20,435 bases of DNA, taken from a virus. The notes beneath the pieces are model-generated. The model did not search any database, was not told where the DNA came from, and saw nothing but the letters and a program-made list of their open reading frames with translations. Position 1 is the stretch's first letter; each line of letters begins with the position of its first letter. The stretch is from positions 1-20,435 of the IMG/VR virus record IMGVR_UViG_3300046777_000112; one strand, 5' to 3'. The position numbers and the translations under genes were made by a program. Positions 3,622 through 19,388 of the stretch are shown piece after piece.

Positions 3622-4551
3622 TTAATCGAAACAAACGTTATAAACTACGATTTCAGATGGATTTGTATGGTAAAAACCTACTTTCAAGTTCGCTCTTGTA
3701 CGGATGTACGGCTCAGCAACTGTGTCAGAAAGGTTAACAGCTTTCAATGCTTTAGCATCACCTTCAGCATCAAATGCGTAGATAAGGTTGTTTTTCAAAG
3801 TCAACACGATAGTGTTATCCGGCATACCTTCAGCAACTACCATTTGAATACCTAAGAAAGTCAATCCTAAAGGAAGAGTTACATAAGTTTGAGTGTTTCC
3901 TGAAGCAGCAGCCAATTCGTAAGCTTGAGCAACGTTAGCAGAAACATAAAATCTTAAATCTCCTTTTTTGAATTTGATTGTAGATGGAGCAGCAGCCCAA
4001 ACACCTTCAAGCGTAGAAAGTACGTTAGAAGAAGTAACAGCACCTCCGTATTGACCTACTACGTCAGCGTCAGCACAAAGTTTCTTCAAATGACCATCAC
4101 ACAAAGAAAGGATAGCACTTTCAGATGTAGTGTCACCTTGCCATCTCAATAACTCAACGTCTTCACCAATTTGCTTAGACATAGTGTCCCAATAGTAAGA
4201 CATAAAAGAAGCAACAGTAAAATCTCCGTTAGAACCTTTAGCCATTTGTAAAGCTAAGAAAGATTGCTCAAGGTCAAACTGACAAATTTGTGCCATAGCT
4301 GACAAAGGACATACGTCGATGTCGATAGCGTTCAATGTATCAGTCGGAGCAGAGAAGTTACAAGTAGATGCTTGTAAGATGTTACCGAAAGTTACGTTAG
4401 CTAATTTAGTAGCTGACTTGATACCTGGAAGTGTACGGAAGTTATCCGCAGTAGTATCAGTTAAATAAGCGCGAGAGTAAAACTCTTCAGGATTCGCACA
4501 CAAAAGTGCGTTAGTTTCAACGTCTAAGTCGAATTTTAATTTACGATTCAT
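3622..4551 (-). CDS. Major capsid protein (HK97-fold candidate)
   Basis: 309 residues, close to the usual size of HK97-fold capsid subunits. It is placed directly after a protease-scaffold gene (2-bp gap) and before a strong terminator. The composition is typical of a capsid: Ala/Gly/Thr-rich, with codon use that looks more regular than its neighbours, suggesting high expression. The N-terminal part (MNRKLKFDLDVETNALLCANPEEFYSRAYL) may be the extension processed or bound by the scaffold. Segments such as LRFYVSANVAQAYELAAASG (mid P-domain) and the C-terminal PYIRTRANLKVGFYHTNPSEIVVYN (A-domain end) resemble capsids of Bacteroidota phages. The fold call is inferred from position, length and pattern; there is no short diagnostic motif for this family. 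Confidence 0.82.
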   Translation of the reverse strand: MNRKLKFDLDVETNALLCANPEEFYSRAYLTDTTADNFRTLPGIKSATKLANVTFGNILQASTCNFSAPTDTLNAIDIDVCPLSAMAQICQFDLEQSFLALQMAKGSNGDFTVASFMSYYWDTMSKQIGEDVELLRWQGDTTSESAILSLCDGHLKKLCADADVVGQYGGAVTSSNVLSTLEGVWAAAPSTIKFKKGDLRFYVSANVAQAYELAAASGNTQTYVTLPLGLTFLGIQMVVAEGMPDNTIVLTLKNNLIYAFDAEGDAKALKAVNLSDTVAEPYIRTRANLKVGFYHTNPSEIVVYNVCFD

Positions 4552-4553
4552 TT

Positions 4554-5540
4554 TTATTGGTTTTTAAAAGTATTACGAAATGCTTTGAATTTATCGAATG
4601 CAGACATTTTAACCTCTTCGATAACTTCTTCTTCTTCTTTTTCCATTATACGCTCTTCAACTTGGTTCTTCAAGTCTGCGATAATAGCAAGTAAAGAATT
4701 AACTTGTTCTTCAATCATAGGTTTAACCACAGCTAAGATAGCTTCAGCGTCAGTAGTAGGGTCAACAGCCATAGCCTCTTCTACAACTTCTTCAGTAGGC
4801 TCTTCGGTTGTTTCTTCTTTTACTTCTTCTTCTACTACGTCTTCTGCCATAGCAACCTCTTCTTTGACTTCCTCCTCAACTTGAGTTTCAGCCATTTCTT
4901 GTTCTTTAACCTCGATAATTTCTCCGTCTTTTACTACGTAGATTTTACCTTCGATTAAATGTTCTCCGTCTGGTAACTTCATTGTATTTAATTTAATTTG
5001 ATTACTTAGTTTCAGACCTAAAAAACCTTCAATAGAGAAACCTATTTGTTCGTCTTTTACTAATTTCTCGTAGTAGTCAACGTCGGTAACTTGAGCAGTC
5101 AACATCAAAGTACCTTTTGGGACTTCTATTCCGTAGCTTGTATAAGACTTGTCTTCTCGTGGTTTTTCAACTATCCAAGATTCAAGAATATAAGCGGGAA
5201 CAGTTTTCTCAGTTTCGTGTTCTAAGTTAAATAAATCTCTATTGTTTAAGTCACGCATAAACTTCGTGTATATTTGCTCTATTACCTCTTCGGTAAATTG
5301 AACATAATACTCACCGCTTTCGTCGTCACGTCTATAAATCTCCATTGGAATCATAGCGGGTGCAACGATTCGGTATTTAGTAGCGTCAGCAAAAAAGAAA
5401 GACTGCGCTTGATTAAACGCCATACCTTTAACTTTAATAGCCGGTGTTGAAGTGAATGCGATTTGTTCGATTCCTAAATCTTCTCCGTCGGAGTATTCAG
5501 GGTCGATTGTGATTTTATAGATAGGTAAATCTTTACTCAT
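4554..5540 (-). CDS. XkdF-type prohead protease fused to an acidic scaffold domain
   Basis: 328 residues in two parts. Residues about 1-175 match XkdF-like putative serine proteases (Peptidase_S78_2): YRIVAPAMIPMEIYRRDD (56-73), NLEHE with candidate catalytic His108, and IGFSIEGF with candidate Ser169. These enzymes mature the procapsid. Residues about 207-262 are extremely acidic (repeated EEE and VEEE), 263-312 look like a coiled coil, and the end is basic (SAFDKFKAFRNTFKNQ), the layout of a scaffolding protein with a capsid-binding tail. An in-frame Met at residue 216 (complement of 4893-4895, preceded by A-rich GAACAAGAA) could start a separate scaffold of 113 residues, as in lambda C/Nu3. 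The gene is divergent from the plus-strand chaperone pair and carries an AATATAGT element 5 nt before its ATG. Confidence 0.82.
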   Translation of the reverse strand: MSKDLPIYKITIDPEYSDGEDLGIEQIAFTSTPAIKVKGMAFNQAQSFFFADATKYRIVAPAMIPMEIYRRDDESGEYYVQFTEEVIEQIYTKFMRDLNNRDLFNLEHETEKTVPAYILESWIVEKPREDKSYTSYGIEVPKGTLMLTAQVTDVDYYEKLVKDEQIGFSIEGFLGLKLSNQIKLNTMKLPDGEHLIEGKIYVVKDGEIIEVKEQEMAETQVEEEVKEEVAMAEDVVEEEVKEETTEEPTEEVVEEAMAVDPTTDAEAILAVVKPMIEEQVNSLLAIIADLKNQVEERIMEKEEEEVIEEVKMSAFDKFKAFRNTFKNQ

Positions 5541-5572
5541 TTTGTACTATATTAAAAAGTGTGTTATATTTG
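5541..5572 (+). promoter_or_regulatory. Bacteroidota-type promoter for the plus-strand chaperone pair
   Basis: TTTG at 5541-5544, a 20-nt spacer and TATATTTG at 5565-5572 match the known Bacteroidota primary-sigma consensus (TTTG, 17-23 nt, TAnnTTTG) exactly. Initiation would fall near 5577-5580, leaving a leader of only about 5-8 nt before the ATG at 5585. It is the best promoter in the window and shares its bases with the start region of the divergent protease gene, including that gene's AATATAGT element (5546-5553). Confidence 0.8.
5546..5553 (-). promoter_or_regulatory. AATATAGT start-proximal element (before protease-scaffold gene)
   Basis: The octamer ends 5 nt before the ATG at 5540 on the minus strand, the largest spacing of the six copies. 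It lies inside the spacer of the plus-strand promoter, so occupancy of one could affect the other. Function is unknown. Confidence 0.35.
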
Positions 5573-5584
5573 TTAAAAAAAATT

Positions 5585-6130
5585 ATGATAGAAATTTTAG
5601 GAAAACAAATCCCGAATCAGTTAGACGAGTTAACTATTCAGCAATTTGAAGATATTACAGAGATACACAACGATTCGTCTTTAGATATAATCGAAAAGCA
5701 TATCAAAGTATTTGAACTTTTAGGAGTAAGTGAAGACGAAATGGTAGAAGCTGACATAGACTTTGAAACATTCAAGAAATATGTACAGGAATTTAACCAA
5801 AAAACTGACGCGGATATAATCAAAGAAATAGAAATAGACGGATATACATACAAGTCACACGAGGAAGAGTTTAAGCTATCGGTAAAAGATATGAAAGTAA
5901 TAGAGAAAATAATTAACTCTAAACACAAAGGTTATTTAAGCGAACTTATTGCCGTTCTATTTAAAAGAACTGACTTATCTAAAGTAGAACACTACGACAA
6001 AGCACACATCAAACACAAGGCTAAATTATTTAGAGAACAAAAAGCTGCCGTTGCAGTTCCTTATTTAGTTTACATAGGACAAAAATTCTCTAAACAAATT
6101 GAAAATGCTACTACCGAAGTCGTGGAATGA
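5585..6130 (+). CDS. Putative tail assembly chaperone, first of pair (plus strand)
   Basis: 181 residues from ATG at 5585. A GTG at 5561 is in frame but lies within the promoter and before any likely transcript start, so it is rejected. The pattern (LDELTIQQFEDITEIHNDSS, then a charged helical middle and GYLSELIAVLFKRTD) resembles the small helical proteins encoded next to tape measure genes in Bacteroidota phages, which act as tail assembly chaperones that coat the tape measure during tail building. No enzyme motif is visible. It overlaps the next gene by 26 nt in a different frame. It is transcribed against all its neighbours. Weak similarity to the second ORF suggests the two are paralogues. 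Role is inferred; it could be another accessory virion protein. Confidence 0.55.
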   Translation: MIEILGKQIPNQLDELTIQQFEDITEIHNDSSLDIIEKHIKVFELLGVSEDEMVEADIDFETFKKYVQEFNQKTDADIIKEIEIDGYTYKSHEEEFKLSVKDMKVIEKIINSKHKGYLSELIAVLFKRTDLSKVEHYDKAHIKHKAKLFREQKAAVAVPYLVYIGQKFSKQIENATTEVVE

Positions 6131-6842
6131 TATAGACGTTCTACAATTTAAAGAACTTCGTACACTAAAAGATATACCGGAACTATTTTCTCGTGAAATA
6201 GAAGCCTTAGCTACGCTCACGGGTCTACCATCTGAAGACTTAGAAGACTACGACGTTGACGAGATTCAAGAGTTTATGACAAAAGTAAAATGGATAAACT
6301 CAGAACCACCTAAGAAGTATAAATTAGAAGTAGCTAAGATGCATTTTAAGGGGTTTAATAAGCTAACTTTAGGGGAGTTTATAGATATAGAGTATTTCTT
6401 TAGCAAAGACTACATAGAAAATATTTCTGAGATAGCTGCTATATGCTACAAAAAGACGAAAAAAAACGAATGGAAAGAAACCATTTACGAACCTTATACT
6501 TATTCGCCTTTTGATAGGGCGTATCTATTTGACGAAATACCAATACCACACATTTACGGAATCATTCCAGAGTATTTGTCTTTTAGAGATAACTTTATGA
6601 AGACTTACGCTAACCTTTTTGAACCCGAATTTGAAGAAGAAGAAACCGAAGAAGATACTAAAGACCTAACACCAGAAGAAAAGAAAGAAATCCAAGAAGA
6701 ACAAAAGATTAAAAAATGGTCGTGGGAAAGATTACTATACTCTATATGTAACGAAGACCTGACTAAGATAAGTCAAGCCTCCGATTTGTCGTTAATATTT
6801 GTGTTTAATATGCTATCTATGAAAAAGGAACTTAACCTTTAA
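6105..6842 (+). CDS. Putative tail assembly chaperone, second of pair (plus strand)
   Basis: 245 residues from ATG at 6105; an in-frame TTG at 6099 is a weaker alternative. The N-terminal half (SWNDIDVLQFKELRTLKDIP, then LTGLPSEDL and LTLGEFIDIEYFFSKDYIENISEIAAICYKK) follows the same layout as the preceding protein. A Glu-rich linker (FEPEFEEEETEEDTKDLTPE, about residues 171-190) leads to a C-terminal helical end, WSWERLLYSICNEDLTKI and LSLIFVFNMLSM, a pattern I associate with tail chaperone C-termini in Bacteroidota phages. The reading frame is +1 relative to the first ORF, so the arrangement recalls overlapping chaperone pairs such as lambda G/T, but independent initiation at its own ATG is enough to explain it. 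Its stop overlaps the convergent gene's stop by 11 nt. Confidence 0.55.
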   Translation: MLLPKSWNDIDVLQFKELRTLKDIPELFSREIEALATLTGLPSEDLEDYDVDEIQEFMTKVKWINSEPPKKYKLEVAKMHFKGFNKLTLGEFIDIEYFFSKDYIENISEIAAICYKKTKKNEWKETIYEPYTYSPFDRAYLFDEIPIPHIYGIIPEYLSFRDNFMKTYANLFEPEFEEEETEEDTKDLTPEEKKEIQEEQKIKKWSWERLLYSICNEDLTKISQASDLSLIFVFNMLSMKKELNL

Positions 6843-7278
6843 ATGATAGCGCACCTAAGAACTCTCCTCCTATTGGATTGAAAGAATACACAATACTTTT
6901 CTTTTCTCCTAAAATTGTAGCAACTTGCAGAAGTGGATAGCGTTGTGTCATCCATTCGGTGTATTGTTCGAATATCTCGGAACTAACTCCGCTTTGATTC
7001 ATTAGGTCAGTTAACTTAGCGCAGAAATCATAGGACGCTATTACTCCGCCATTCCATAAGTTCGCTCCGTTGTTTAAGAATCCAAAGTAATACATCGCGT
7101 TAATCTGAATATTCAACTCTCCTAAAGCGGGTATTTCTGCGTTTATACGAACTGACTCGTACAAAGCCCCCGTGTCAATAGCATCGTATTCACGAATCAA
7201 AGATTGTAGTAATTTTTGAATCTTTACACGCGTCTTATACTTGACGTAGAATATTCCGTTATTTGCGTATCTTGCCAT
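6832..7278 (-). CDS. HK97 gp10-like tail completion / head-tail joining protein
   Basis: 148 residues. The segment YDAIDTGALYESVRINAEIP followed by LNIQINAMYYFGFLNNGANLW is the typical arrangement of gp10-like proteins, where a TGALxxS motif and a YxxFLNxG motif mark the fold. Those proteins join completed tails to heads or close the neck. It starts in a TAATG overlap with the 79-aa gene, and its stop overlaps the stop of the convergent plus-strand chaperone gene by 11 nt. In most siphoviruses this gene sits between connectors and tail tube gene; here it lies at the end of the tail block, next to the reversed cassette. The call is moderately secure from motif spacing. Confidence 0.55.
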   Translation of the reverse strand: MARYANNGIFYVKYKTRVKIQKLLQSLIREYDAIDTGALYESVRINAEIPALGELNIQINAMYYFGFLNNGANLWNGGVIASYDFCAKLTDLMNQSGVSSEIFEQYTEWMTQRYPLLQVATILGEKKSIVYSFNPIGGEFLGALSFKG

Positions 7279-7526: not shown

Positions 7527-8300
7527 TTAAGGCACGTCAGTAACTCTATCTCCGTTTTCCATATTAATAGAGCCTAAATCATAACTTCCTATATTGTCAT
7601 TTAACAACCATTGTGAACCGCTCCAAGTATCATCATCTCCCATTCTCCACCAATGCGTTGGGGGTGCTGCCAAAGTAGATAAATTAAATGGAACTCCACT
7701 ATTATAAATAGTCGCTGCATTCGAGCGTTGGTCAGTTCCCCAAATTGCAACCTCGTCAATGTTACCTAAAACAGGAGATTGATAACCGTTTGAATCTTCA
7801 CCAACCCAAATAGTCCCACTTGAAACAGGAAAAGCAGTAGGTAAACCACTCGCTGTATTATAAACATCTACCCCATTAACAAATGGTCTTATTTTATTAG
7901 CTTGCGTTGCTTGAGATAAATCACAACAAATTAATACGTGATTCCAAACACCAGCCGTTATAACGCCTGTATTACTTCGACAAAAAGAACCAGTTGTATT
8001 TACTGAAATATCTAATTGTCCAGTCGTTCTTAACCAAATTAATACTTGTGAATTATTTAAGGTTGTGTTTCTTGGAATCATAAAAAACACTCTACTTGTA
8101 GTTAAATTAGTAGGTTTAATCCACATTGACAAAGTGAATTTATTTGTACCATCTAATTCACTAAATGTAGTTGAACCTTTCGCGTATTCATCCACCCCAT
8201 CAAATAATAGTGAATATTGATTTGTGAATGGAGTAACCCCTCCTCCTCGTGCTAAAATTCCGTGCGTTGCTAAAAACATACTATTGCCGTATCCATACAT
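7527..8300 (-). CDS. LamG / concanavalin-like tail protein, probable receptor binding
   Basis: 257 residues. A short N-terminal segment (MYGYGNSMFLATHGILARGG) of a type frequent on tail-tip proteins of Bacteroidota phages precedes a LamG-like jelly-roll, about residues 29-205: YSLLFDGVDEYA, FTLSMWIKP, VWNHVLICCDLS, FVNGVDV and LGNIDEVAIWGTDQRS. This is the classic order of a Laminin_G_3 domain, which binds polysaccharides or glycans. The C-terminus has a W-rich segment (THWWRMGDDDTWSGSQWLL). The likely job is recognition of capsule or surface glycans by the tail tip. It follows the fibre-like and 90-aa genes with gaps of 2-10 bp, so the three probably assemble together. The sugar specificity cannot be read from sequence. 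Confidence 0.8.
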   Translation of the reverse strand: MYGYGNSMFLATHGILARGGGVTPFTNQYSLLFDGVDEYAKGSTTFSELDGTNKFTLSMWIKPTNLTTSRVFFMIPRNTTLNNSQVLIWLRTTGQLDISVNTTGSFCRSNTGVITAGVWNHVLICCDLSQATQANKIRPFVNGVDVYNTASGLPTAFPVSSGTIWVGEDSNGYQSPVLGNIDEVAIWGTDQRSNAATIYNSGVPFNLSTLAAPPTHWWRMGDDDTWSGSQWLLNDNIGSYDLGSINMENGDRVTDVP

Positions 8301-9328: not shown

Positions 9329-9336
9329 ACTATATT
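9329..9336 (-). promoter_or_regulatory. AATATAGT start-proximal element (before fibre-like gene)
   Basis: The octamer ends 2 nt before the ATG at 9326. An AAAACACGAA copy lies 8 nt further upstream in the same gap. No promoter consensus is evident. Confidence 0.4.
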
Positions 9337-9355
9337 ATTTTAAATTCGTGTTTTG

Positions 9356-9799
9356 TTACTCACCTTGTAATGGCACTTGACAATCAGTCCAATTTGAAAC
9401 GTCAACATCTAAAGTCATTAACCAACCCGCTGCATAGTCTAACAAGTCGTTGTTTAAAGGAGTAAATACCGGGTCAGTAACGATGTCGAAATCATAATCA
9501 TTTGAGAATCTAAAATAGTTTACTAAGTCTACTAAGATTTGATTACAATCTGAAAGTATTACGTTAATGTTTGCTCTATCTTTTTGTATTATATCAAAGC
9601 AATATATCTCTAAAGAAAATATGTTCGTGTTTTCGGTAGGTGTACTACCTACAGGAACGATATAGATAATCGGATATTTTTCGTCTTTAGTAGCAAAATT
9701 AAACAACTGCTCTTTGAAATCACTACCCACTTTCTTAACTTGTAAATGTGAGTTGTAAAATGCTTCTATCTTATTTATTAAGGCTTGATAACTTGTCAT
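9356..9799 (-). CDS. Probable tail terminator / tail completion protein
   Basis: 147 residues. The pattern YPIIYIVPVGSTPTENTNIFSLEIYCFDIIQKDRANINVILSDCNQIL and the ending DYDFDIVTDPVFTPLNNDLLDYAAGWLMTLDVDV is shared by a family encoded near the tape measure in Bacteroidota siphoviruses. Its alpha/beta layout and size (about 140-150 residues) fit tail terminator proteins, which cap the tube at its proper length. The start overlaps the tape measure stop as ATGA, indicating coupling. There is no catalytic motif. Assignment to the terminator role rather than to another minor tail protein is inference from fold pattern and position. Confidence 0.55.
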   Translation of the reverse strand: MTSYQALINKIEAFYNSHLQVKKVGSDFKEQLFNFATKDEKYPIIYIVPVGSTPTENTNIFSLEIYCFDIIQKDRANINVILSDCNQILVDLVNYFRFSNDYDFDIVTDPVFTPLNNDLLDYAAGWLMTLDVDVSNWTDCQVPLQGE

Positions 9800-11706
9800 A
9801 ATTCAGCGTTCTTTTTTATTTTATCAATTTTTGTTTGTGTAGTAGTTACATCGGTTTCACTTACTACCGCTTGTACTGTTATATTTTGGTTCGTTTCTAC
9901 GCTTGTAGGCGCACCAACTTGGTTAAGTTGATTACCTTGACCGAATAGATTTACTGCCGGTGTAGCTTGTGCCGTAGCTGTTGCTGTTGGAGCAGAACCA
10001 CCACCCGAAGGAATAGAACCACCACCACCACCTATAAACTTGGATATAGTTGACGCAGCGATAGAAGCTATAGAAGTAGCTGCACGTATTTTAGCAGCAG
10101 TTGAAGCACTTGTAGCCAATGCCGTACCGCCATCCGGGAGAAGTTTCCACGTAGGATTAGACCAATAACCGGATATTTCTCGTTGTGTATTTACGATTAT
10201 TTCACCAATAGCTAAAGCCTTATCTACTAAAAACAATGCGTTTGCTATTTTCTTGTTTTCTCCAGCTAATTCAGTTAATCCTGAAATCAAACCTTTTGCA
10301 AATCCTAACCTTGCATCAAATAAACCTTTCTCAGATTCTATTAACGCATCGTTATATTCTTTTAGCTTTTCAGCTTTTTCTTTTTGAGATTGTATTTCTG
10401 CTAAATCAGAGGCTAATTTTTTATCCGTTCTTTCCTTAGTAACAGCATTTAACGCATCCGATAATTCAGTAGCTTGTTTTAATTGTTCGTCTTTTGCTTT
10501 CTTTTGAATTTTCTTATCTTCTTCTTCTTGTAATTTTAAGTAGAAATCTTTTAGCTTTTTCCTTTCGTCAGCTGTTAACTTTTCATTAGTTTTTAGGTCG
10601 GCTATTAATCTATCGTATTTAACTTTGTTTTGTCTTAATTCTCTTTCAGTAGCATCTTTAACCAACTCTAATTCTAAGTCTTTAATTAAACGAGCAGCAT
10701 CTAATCTATTTTTAGCATATTCCTTTTGGTCTTCATTTGATTCTTTTAATATCTTGTTATAATTAGCTTGTGCAAGATTTAAAGCCGTTTGCGCTTGTAC
10801 TAATTCTTGATTACTTCCGCTTAATTTTTTGTCGATGCCAAGCAATTTTTCAGCCTCTTTATTTACACCCAAAAGATTTTCTACTTCTTGTTTTTGTTGA
10901 ACTAATTTCTTAGCGTTTTGAACTTCTAAAAGTGCTTGTTCTTTACGTAATGCTATAGTGCTTTTACCTTGAGATTCTAAAAGTGTTATTTCTGATTCAG
11001 CAAAAGTTTTACCTATTTCATAAGTTTTTTTAAGATTTTCTTGATATTCTCTTTGGTCATTTGTTTTTTGTTCGTATGCTGCTTGTAACTTTTCTAATCT
11101 TGCTTGTTCATTCTTAGCAGCTTCTTCTCCAGCGTGGTCAGTTAATCCTAACCAATCAGTCATATCTTTAAAACCTTGAATAGCTGCGTTTACAGGAATC
11201 ATTAATAAATCAAATGCTTTTCCTAAAAGACCTATTTTATTTAAGAAAATAACTACACCCGCAACGATAGCACCTATAACAGCCACAAGTAAGAAAATAG
11301 GATTAGTCAATAACATAACTCCGAATCTTACAAACGTTTGCCCTAACGTGCTAACAGTGCTTATCAATCCTTTAAACGCTCCTGTTATATCCTTACCGCT
11401 TATTCCAGCCATAGCAGTTTGAAATACCTTAGCCTTTTGCGCAGCACCTTCAAAATCTAAAGACATTAAGTCTTGTTTAATCATTCCAAAAGCATTAGAC
11501 GCAGCTTCAAACCTTGAACCGCTGTTAAAGATTGCTACTTGTTCGTTTGCGTCTTTTAATTGGTCGGCTAATTCACCCGCTCTTTGCGCGAGTTTAGTCA
11601 TTTGTTCCGGGTCAGTAGCATTTGCTATCTGACCTTTTAAATCACGCAATTCTTTTTTGATTGCGCCTATACCCGTGAGTTTTAAAGGAATTTCAACTTG
11701 ATTCAT
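9796..11706 (-). CDS. Tail tape measure protein
   Basis: 636 residues. It sets tail length, fills the tube and helps DNA cross the cell envelope. A short N-terminal segment (EIPLKLTGIGAIKKELRDLKGQIANATDPEQ) is followed by hydrophobic helices at about 127-160 (FLLVAVIGAIVAGVVIFL), a very long charged coiled coil (about 195-470), a second helical part (NALFLVDKALAIGEIIVNTQREISGYW is split by neighbouring segments) and a Gly/Ser/Ala-rich region with GGGGG near 555. By the family rule of about 1.5 Å per residue, a tail near 95 nm is expected. The gene is short compared with many siphovirus tape measures. Neighbours before it are two large baseplate-type genes, not the chaperones, which is the reverse of the usual order. 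An AATATAGT element precedes its ATG by 2 nt. Confidence 0.9.
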   Translation of the reverse strand: MNQVEIPLKLTGIGAIKKELRDLKGQIANATDPEQMTKLAQRAGELADQLKDANEQVAIFNSGSRFEAASNAFGMIKQDLMSLDFEGAAQKAKVFQTAMAGISGKDITGAFKGLISTVSTLGQTFVRFGVMLLTNPIFLLVAVIGAIVAGVVIFLNKIGLLGKAFDLLMIPVNAAIQGFKDMTDWLGLTDHAGEEAAKNEQARLEKLQAAYEQKTNDQREYQENLKKTYEIGKTFAESEITLLESQGKSTIALRKEQALLEVQNAKKLVQQKQEVENLLGVNKEAEKLLGIDKKLSGSNQELVQAQTALNLAQANYNKILKESNEDQKEYAKNRLDAARLIKDLELELVKDATERELRQNKVKYDRLIADLKTNEKLTADERKKLKDFYLKLQEEEDKKIQKKAKDEQLKQATELSDALNAVTKERTDKKLASDLAEIQSQKEKAEKLKEYNDALIESEKGLFDARLGFAKGLISGLTELAGENKKIANALFLVDKALAIGEIIVNTQREISGYWSNPTWKLLPDGGTALATSASTAAKIRAATSIASIAASTISKFIGGGGGSIPSGGGSAPTATATAQATPAVNLFGQGNQLNQVGAPTSVETNQNITVQAVVSETDVTTTQTKIDKIKKNAEL

Positions 11707-15969: not shown

Positions 15970-15977
15970 ACTATATT
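15970..15977 (-). promoter_or_regulatory. AATATAGT start-proximal element (before 495-aa tail gene)
   Basis: The octamer ends 1 nt before the ATG at 15968; an AAAACACGAA copy lies 13 nt further upstream. The whole terL-tail gap is 30 bp, so both signals fill most of it. Confidence 0.4.
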
Positions 15978-15998
15978 AAATGACTTTTGATTCGTGTT

Positions 15999-18711: not shown

Positions 18712-18868
18712 AATTCTCTAATTCTAATGCTAATTTAAATAAACACCACAACACTATAAATAACCCTCCAAAAACACGGAATAACTCCATATGATTAAGC
18801 ATTAAAGCAAAACCACCAAAGACGGCAGTAAAAAAAGCAAGTGTTGCAAGTAAATTAGCGTGTGTCAT
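18698..18868 (-). CDS. 56-residue two-helix membrane protein
   Basis: The open frame from ATG (complement of 18866-18868) to TAA (18698-18700) encodes 56 residues with two hydrophobic helices: LLATLAFFTAVFGGFALML (about 6-24) and LFRVFGGLFIVLWCLFKLAL (about 29-48), then a charged end ENYEKD. It starts 14 nt inside the sigma-like gene and ends 14 nt inside the 80-aa gene, filling a 143-bp gap exactly. Such two-helix proteins near lysis or regulatory genes can be accessory membrane proteins or antiholins, but this one lies far from the holin. Function is unknown. The AATATAGT element lies 1 nt before its ATG, although in coding sequence. Confidence 0.62.
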   Translation of the reverse strand: MTHANLLATLAFFTAVFGGFALMLNHMELFRVFGGLFIVLWCLFKLALELENYEKD

Positions 18869-19388
18869 AACTATATTGAATTTCTTTTATGCCTTGTTTT
18901 ATCTCTTTGATTAAGAAATGCGCAGCAGTCATTGATATATTGAAGTACTGACTTAGTTCCTTCTGAGTAGTTAAGCCTTTGTCGTAATATGCTTCGAAGA
19001 TAATTTGCTTAATTCTATCGTTTATACTATTTCGATATATCTCTATGATAGATTTTTTTAATATGTACTGCTCTTCTAACTGAATTTTCCATTCTAAATC
19101 CGTGTTTTCGCAGTCCTGTTGTTTTCCTTCTTCGATTGCCGTTACTCTATCGTCATTGTTTGACTGACTTGTAGACCATAAAACCTGGCATTTGATTGTG
19201 TTTAGAAGGTAAGATTTTACTTTTTCCTCACAAGCAGTATCGTCGTTTATGCTTAGAACGTGTAAATAAGAGTTGTTGATAACTGTGTCCGCGTCTATAT
19301 GGCTGTTCATTCTTACGAGGAAGTAGTTTGTGTATCTTCTTACCTCGTCGTAATTACATTGTATGTACTTGTCAAGAACGGCTTTCAT
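18855..19388 (-). CDS. Sigma-70-like (ECF-type) transcription factor
   Basis: 177 residues. An N-terminal helical part (LDKYIQCNYDEVRRYTNYFL and DADTVINNSYLHVLSI, about 5-47) resembles sigma region 2, where the -10 element is melted. A variable acidic linker (about 75-100) leads to a C-terminal helix-turn-helix: GLTTQKELSQYFNISMTAAHFLIKEIKQGI (split across 138-167), typical of sigma region 4. The size is that of ECF sigma factors. A phage factor of this kind could redirect host RNA polymerase to late genes, and the gene sits near the start of the late cluster. The match of region 2 is weak, so a regulator with only a region-4-like domain remains possible. It overlaps the 67-aa gene by 17 bp. 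Confidence 0.65.
   Translation of the reverse strand: MKAVLDKYIQCNYDEVRRYTNYFLVRMNSHIDADTVINNSYLHVLSINDDTACEEKVKSYLLNTIKCQVLWSTSQSNNDDRVTAIEEGKQQDCENTDLEWKIQLEEQYILKKSIIEIYRNSINDRIKQIIFEAYYDKGLTTQKELSQYFNISMTAAHFLIKEIKQGIKEIQYSYDTR
18870..18877 (-). promoter_or_regulatory. AATATAGT start-proximal element (before 56-residue gene)
   Basis: The octamer ends 1 nt before the ATG at 18868. This copy lies within the last codons of the sigma-like gene, so its match could be partly coincidental. Confidence 0.3.

Follow-up and report, generated by a model that had tools for sequence, protein, structure and literature searches.

The stretch of DNA analysed here (the window) covers positions 1 to 20,435 of IMG/VR virus record IMGVR_UViG_3300046777_000112. 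Analysis of its open reading frames indicated that all real genes lie on the minus strand except two, A and B, which alone lie on the plus strand (Table 1); each further plus-strand ORF of the window lies opposite a longer gene on the minus strand. Genes A and B overlap by 26 nt, and the reading frame of B is already open from a TTG at 6099. Forty-four nucleotides separate the start of A from that of the divergent protease gene (5540, minus strand), while the other end of the pair meets the convergent 148-aa gene in an 11-nt stop-to-stop overlap, which measures 4-24 nt in relatives. Both the plus-strand position of the pair between minus-strand genes and this overlap had been claimed in an earlier sequence-only reading; the ORF list confirmed the coordinates of the former, and the latter was confirmed by the end of the 148-aa gene at 6832. 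Family searches gave no match for the 148-aa protein or for the putative tape measure protein. A strong intrinsic-terminator-like stem of 12 pairs was found at 3602-3575 on the minus strand, between the capsid gene and a 181-aa gene (putative tail tube). The protein encoded at 7527-8300 carries a LamG domain (PF13385); its gene is among the few late genes with no detectable homologue in the cluster representatives, and it may possibly reflect variability in receptor binding.

Table 1. Coordinates of the genes and sequence motifs of the window
Feature	Position	Strand	Remarks
Putative major capsid protein	3622..4551	-	Remote resemblance to gp02 of P12024L and to a phage protein annotated as major capsid
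Head maturation protease (XkdF type), divergent neighbour	4554..5540	-	PF14550, E 2.3e-10
-33-like TTTG of A/B promoter	5541..5544	+	TTTG-N20-TATATTTG
Putative late promoter of protease gene, AACAAATATAACACACTTTTTAATATAG	5547..5574	-	6 nt before ATG
-7 box TATATTTG of A/B promoter	5565..5572	+	TAnnTTTG conserved before A
Gene A, short paralogue	5585..6130	+	181 aa, ATG 5585
Gene B, long paralogue	6105..6842	+	245 aa, conserved start ATG 6105
148-aa gene, convergent neighbour	6832..7278	-	From ORF list; HK97 gp10-like was a guess of the sequence-only reading
Late-type motif before 246-aa gene	9330..9357	-	AAC spacing in 13/13 relatives with the box
Putative tape measure protein	9796..11706	-	Inferred from length and composition; TAATATAG at 11717-11710 heads the gene
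AATATnG-type boxes alone, without AAC	11717, 2949	-	Motif scan
Late-type motif before 495-aa gene	15971..15998	-	Motif scan
Helix-turn-helix protein, candidate late regulator	18855..19388	-	177 aa, weakly RinA-like
Late-type motif, end of regulator gene	18871..18898	-	AAC-N18-AATATAG before 56-aa ORF

Relatives were gathered by scans with A, B, the protease and profiles. In the first relative set, A or B was opposed to the protease at every locus holding both, and the full set, with about 360 loci scored, contained none in which they share a strand. A, B and the protease are all present at 338 loci, which represent 218 distinct A-B sequences in 68 clusters; the number of distinct sequences is the fairer count because more than one locus derives from some contigs. 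The reversal is kept even in the most remote relatives, the MAG contigs L274 and L275, whose B proteins are 39% and 37% identical, respectively. A simple ORF caller indicated that A and B are the sole opposite-strand ORFs in four of the six long relatives (G001, G002, G005 and G006), while G003 and G004 have one or two extra small opposite-strand ORFs. The clade is a large family of uncultivated freshwater Bacteroidota phages with A and B reversed throughout. An inversion introduced by assembly or binning has practically no probability left as an explanation, since all scored relatives, which stem from many independent metagenomes and include two MAG contigs, agree in gene order and orientation; the orientation is therefore not an assembly inversion.

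Comparison with hhalign showed that A and B are paralogues (95.5%, E 1.3e-8), B having beyond A an acidic linker and an additional conserved C-terminal domain. In most close pairs both genes show purifying selection, with dN/dS of about 0.03-0.08, and with values of about 0.07 for A against close relatives and of 0.03-0.05 for B in most close pairs; the values of 0.23-0.26 obtained with L008 and L018 derive from an ungapped comparison of B and are possibly due to misalignment. The structure prediction and profile search proposed in the sequence-only reading gave good AlphaFold2 models (pLDDT 88 for A and 84 for B) and a match to PHROG 25418, not to a chaperone family. Searches of A and B against Pfam, PHROG and NCBIfam yielded no family match, B had no fold match in the PDB, and the viral matches of B that are named chaperone had E values of 0.14 or worse. 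Foldseek matched an uncharacterised phage protein family that includes proteins of phage P12024S (I6R9M9) and Flavobacterium phage 6H (R9VW65).

Alignment of B with the PHROG 25418 alignment (Duneviridae and others) extended over most of the length of B (hhalign 92.5%, E 5e-7, score 53.5), while 60 column-shuffled controls reached at most 22.2 and reversed controls 14.4. The likeness lies in the GEF.D and LYR regions, with a trace of the W-W C-terminal part, and A reaches the same superfamily indirectly, through its paralogy with B. Members of PHROG 25418 occur in Flavobacterium phage FPSV-F7 (QCW20227), laban6-1 (gp17) and Cellulophaga phage Ingeline (gp05), where they are situated between the portal/adaptor and tape measure genes on the same strand. 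There the family is represented by a single gene of about 300 aa, whereas the window carries a duplicated pair on the opposite strand. In phage Leef the homologue is near the portal gene and does not adjoin the tape-measure gene. Thus the close relatives compared for orientation are all reversed, while in cultured phages the remote homologues follow the strand of the structural genes; as they run with portal and tape measure there, the reversal was probably derived in the clade of the window. The homologue in Flavobacterium phage 6H, gp10 (L292:10352-10927), is truncated, being a 191-aa ORF broken twice relative to the intact 293-aa gene of FPSV-F7; a programmed frameshift in this gene was considered and rejected, since the double break looks like lesions or sequence errors.

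Analysis of the 44-nt gap revealed a candidate promoter for the pair. The pattern TTTG-N19-21-TAnnTTTG has its sole match in the window, both strands included, at 5541-5572, with about 0.5 matches expected in shuffled sequences. The element TAnnTTTG was found 11-17 nt upstream of the ATG of A in 58 of 67 cluster representatives and is absent from about 13% of the clusters (L275, L297, L300, L308 and others), while the -33 TTTG showed no conservation in relatives outside the subclade of the window itself. The canonical Bacteroidota promoter put forward in the sequence-only reading is thus upheld in its -7 half, kept in 58/67 clusters, and not in its -33 half, which is confined to that subclade. 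In Flavobacterium johnsoniae the -7 element shows almost no variation and the -33 element is far less distinct (PMC6847099), and the retention of the former without the latter before A fits this pattern. A scan for E. coli-type promoters remained at chance level, and Rfam gave no match.

In G001, G002 and G005 the same type of box was also found in gaps preceding early or replication genes. In G006, TATATTTG occurs in addition 69 nt upstream of a 386-aa gene of terminase size, so that the box does not mark early genes exclusively. Some relatives carry cargo genes between the divergence point and A, on the strand of A. Three distinct loci, L025, L202 and L255, carry an Acb2/Tad1-hairpin-like gene of the anti-CBASS sponge type, whose PF24729 matches (E 3.6e-4 and 1.3e-3) fall short of the curated cutoff; in L301 an N6/N4 methylase occupies this place. 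The C-terminus of the L301 methylase resembles a methylase of the G001 replication region. Genes of the Acb2/Tad1 and methylase types are usually needed early, and their presence as cargo fits an early activity of the A/B promoter. The early-type -7 box, and the anti-defence-type genes that head the cassette in some relatives, might also be taken to mean that A and B are themselves early, non-morphogenetic proteins of host takeover or counter-defence lodged inside the structural block. This we consider rather unlikely, as the remote homologues of B in the Duneviridae lie in line between portal/adaptor and tape measure genes, and as the whole clade has retained A and B, in contrast to what is typical of accessory early genes.

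The heads of the late transcription units carry a different signal, a two-box motif AAC-N17-19-AATATnG located 1-9 nt before the ATG. The 495-aa, tape-measure, 246-aa, protease and 116-aa genes all have the sequence (T/C)AATATAG 2-6 nt upstream of their ATG, while on the opposite strand no gene-proximal late-type site was found and A and B are without the late motif. The motif was first recognised by eye, and the counts that follow come from the same clade. Across clusters the box is close to the ATG of the protease gene in 44/67, of g116 in 25/45 and of g246 in 14/15, and of the capsid, portal, g147 and g181 genes in none. An AAC was present 15-21 nt upstream of the box, mostly at 17-19, in 48/48 cases for the protease gene, 13/13 for g246 and 8/9 for g148, as compared with 8-18% in shuffled sequences; the spacing was weaker for g116 (55%) and for the tape-measure gene (44% vs 24% shuffled). 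One hint from outside the clade comes from phage P12024L, in which the protease-position gene is preceded by a late-type motif, with its site at 150. We infer that AAC-N17-19-AATATnG is a putative phage late promoter. It is unlike the host promoter motifs described in the text of a study of F. psychrophilum (PMC9723704). The late two-box motif at transcription-unit heads is new here, and no report of it, or of an inverted chaperone cassette, was found in the literature.

A candidate for the factor that reads the late motif is the helix-turn-helix protein, which matched TIGR01636 (E 0.0077, below cutoff) and phrog_668 (E 4e-4) and is present in 6/6 long relatives. The late-type site at the end of its gene precedes the packaging genes, and by this position the protein is a candidate regulator tied to the late motif, in what would be a natural place for an early-to-late switch. 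Its assignment as an ECF sigma factor was considered and found unsupported; the sigma-like gp35 of P12024 has no match to it.

The sequence-only reading had also suggested that late transcription would cross A and B and produce antisense RNA. Taken as the means of control, this would have late transcripts from the 148-aa gene run into B and A and silence them. The convergent overlap of 4-24 nt in relatives, together with the lack of a terminator call between the 148-aa gene and B, leaves room for such read-through; the late-type motif of the protease gene at 5574-5547, however, would let the head genes be transcribed without passage through A/B and makes read-through unnecessary for their expression. 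Antisense silencing appears distinctly unlikely, although the lack of a terminator between the 148-aa gene and B still speaks in its favour.

Comparison of the two motifs within the gap showed that the AAC box of the protease promoter and the -7 box of A/B have one base in common, 5572. Among the 46 clusters with both motifs, the AAC box contains the G of the -7 box in 42, while in the remaining four the two boxes are 20 nt apart and therefore each is conserved in its own right. That the -7 box is a by-product of the late motif was rejected, since the other late sites have no AAATATA after the AAC and four clusters separate the two elements. The four clusters also bear on whether the pair was simply inverted once together with its promoter and has since been kept by descent, the orientation being neutral and no switch existing. 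A single ancestral inversion would suffice for this, since the more remote homologues are in line, but the -7 box has been kept despite diverged flanking DNA and the four clusters hold the distance from the -7 box to A while the position of the late box differs; we regard such a frozen accident as unlikely.

We favour, at a probability of about 0.5, the reading that A and B are duplicated morphogenesis proteins encoded in an inverted cassette under a host sigma-A-type promoter inside the late regulon. Against this reading stand the clusters that lack TAnnTTTG, the TATATTTG before the terminase-size gene of G006, the weaker AAC spacing at g116 and at the tape-measure gene, the purely positional tie of the regulator to the late motif, the negative chaperone family and fold searches, and the places of the homologue in Leef and of the possible structural homologue in P12024. 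Since a host-type switch overlaps an apparent late switch, the timing of the pair's synthesis probably differs from that of the other particle proteins. According to the proposed mechanism, the ancestor of the clade would have turned A and B around and placed them under a host sigma-A-type promoter, from which the host holoenzyme would transcribe them early and independently of the late regulator. The AAC-N17-19-AATATnG motif would be read as the phage late promoter, perhaps by RNA polymerase together with the regulator encoded at 18855-19388, and the late factor bound at the protease promoter would block the A/B start, so that the gap would supply A and B before, and at a lower dose than, the head and tail proteins. 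The overlap of the motifs suggests that the A/B and protease starts may be mutually exclusive. A full form of this scheme, in which the 44-nt gap would be a compact clade-wide switch of interleaved host-sigma and late promoters, with assembly factors made first and then shut off by the late polymerase, is put forward as a tentative possibility. The own promoter and separate control proposed in the sequence-only reading are supported by the -7 box in 58/67 clusters and by the different motif at the late heads, and find no support in the -33 half.

Tailed phages usually carry their structural genes in one orientation and express them jointly at a late stage. The clade-wide inverted cassette with its own promoter type is real, while we infer its mechanism; as a clade-wide exception it offers a natural test of whether assembly factors need a separate dose or timing. 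The putative late motif would in turn offer a way into the gene regulation of uncultivated Bacteroidota phages.

Among the known systems, the Bacteroidota sigma-A promoters (TTTG / TAHHTTTG) are resembled by TATATTTG, which lies at the expected distance from the start; by their geometry, A/B transcription would start at about 5577 with a leader of about 8 nt (PMC6847099). As to function, A and B most likely assist the assembly of the tail or connector, and A, in its short form, and B, with its extra C-terminal domain, would act as chaperone-like assembly factors. The siphovirus tail chaperones of the lambda gpG/gpGT type are encoded directly upstream of the tape-measure gene on the same strand, and one domain occurs in them in both a short and a long form, the latter extended at its C-terminus. 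Genes A and B are like them in having short and long forms with a C-terminal extension on the long one, and unlike them in being two paralogous genes, each with an ATG, instead of one frameshifted gene. They differ also in lying on the opposite strand, about 3 kb from the putative tape-measure gene and not next to it, and in having no family match. The tail assembly chaperones of the sequence-only reading accordingly stand as plausible by the position of the remote homologues and by the short/long architecture, and are without a family or fold match.

Among distinct relatives, 141/141 have B in the +1 frame of A, the frame that a +1 or -2 shift would reach, while B has its own in-frame ATG in 136/136 relatives. 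A programmed frameshift from A to B, suggested by the conserved +1 frame and a CCGAA stretch, appears less likely in view of this ATG; the CCGAA stretch encodes the conserved P-K/N-S-W motif of B and is missing from the L057/L063 group. A separate start of B is favoured over a frameshift because B has its own ATG and is a paralogue of A.

Nonlabens phages P12024L/S (Inhavirus) have a similar late-gene order and a distant capsid homologue. Their possible A/B-like protein, gp40, is encoded after TerL on the late strand and reached only 21.6% with hhalign. In P12024L (L276:33158-35521) the small opposite-strand genes gp51-gp58 occupy the position of A/B, so that this phage and the window both carry opposite-strand genes upstream of the protease-position gene.
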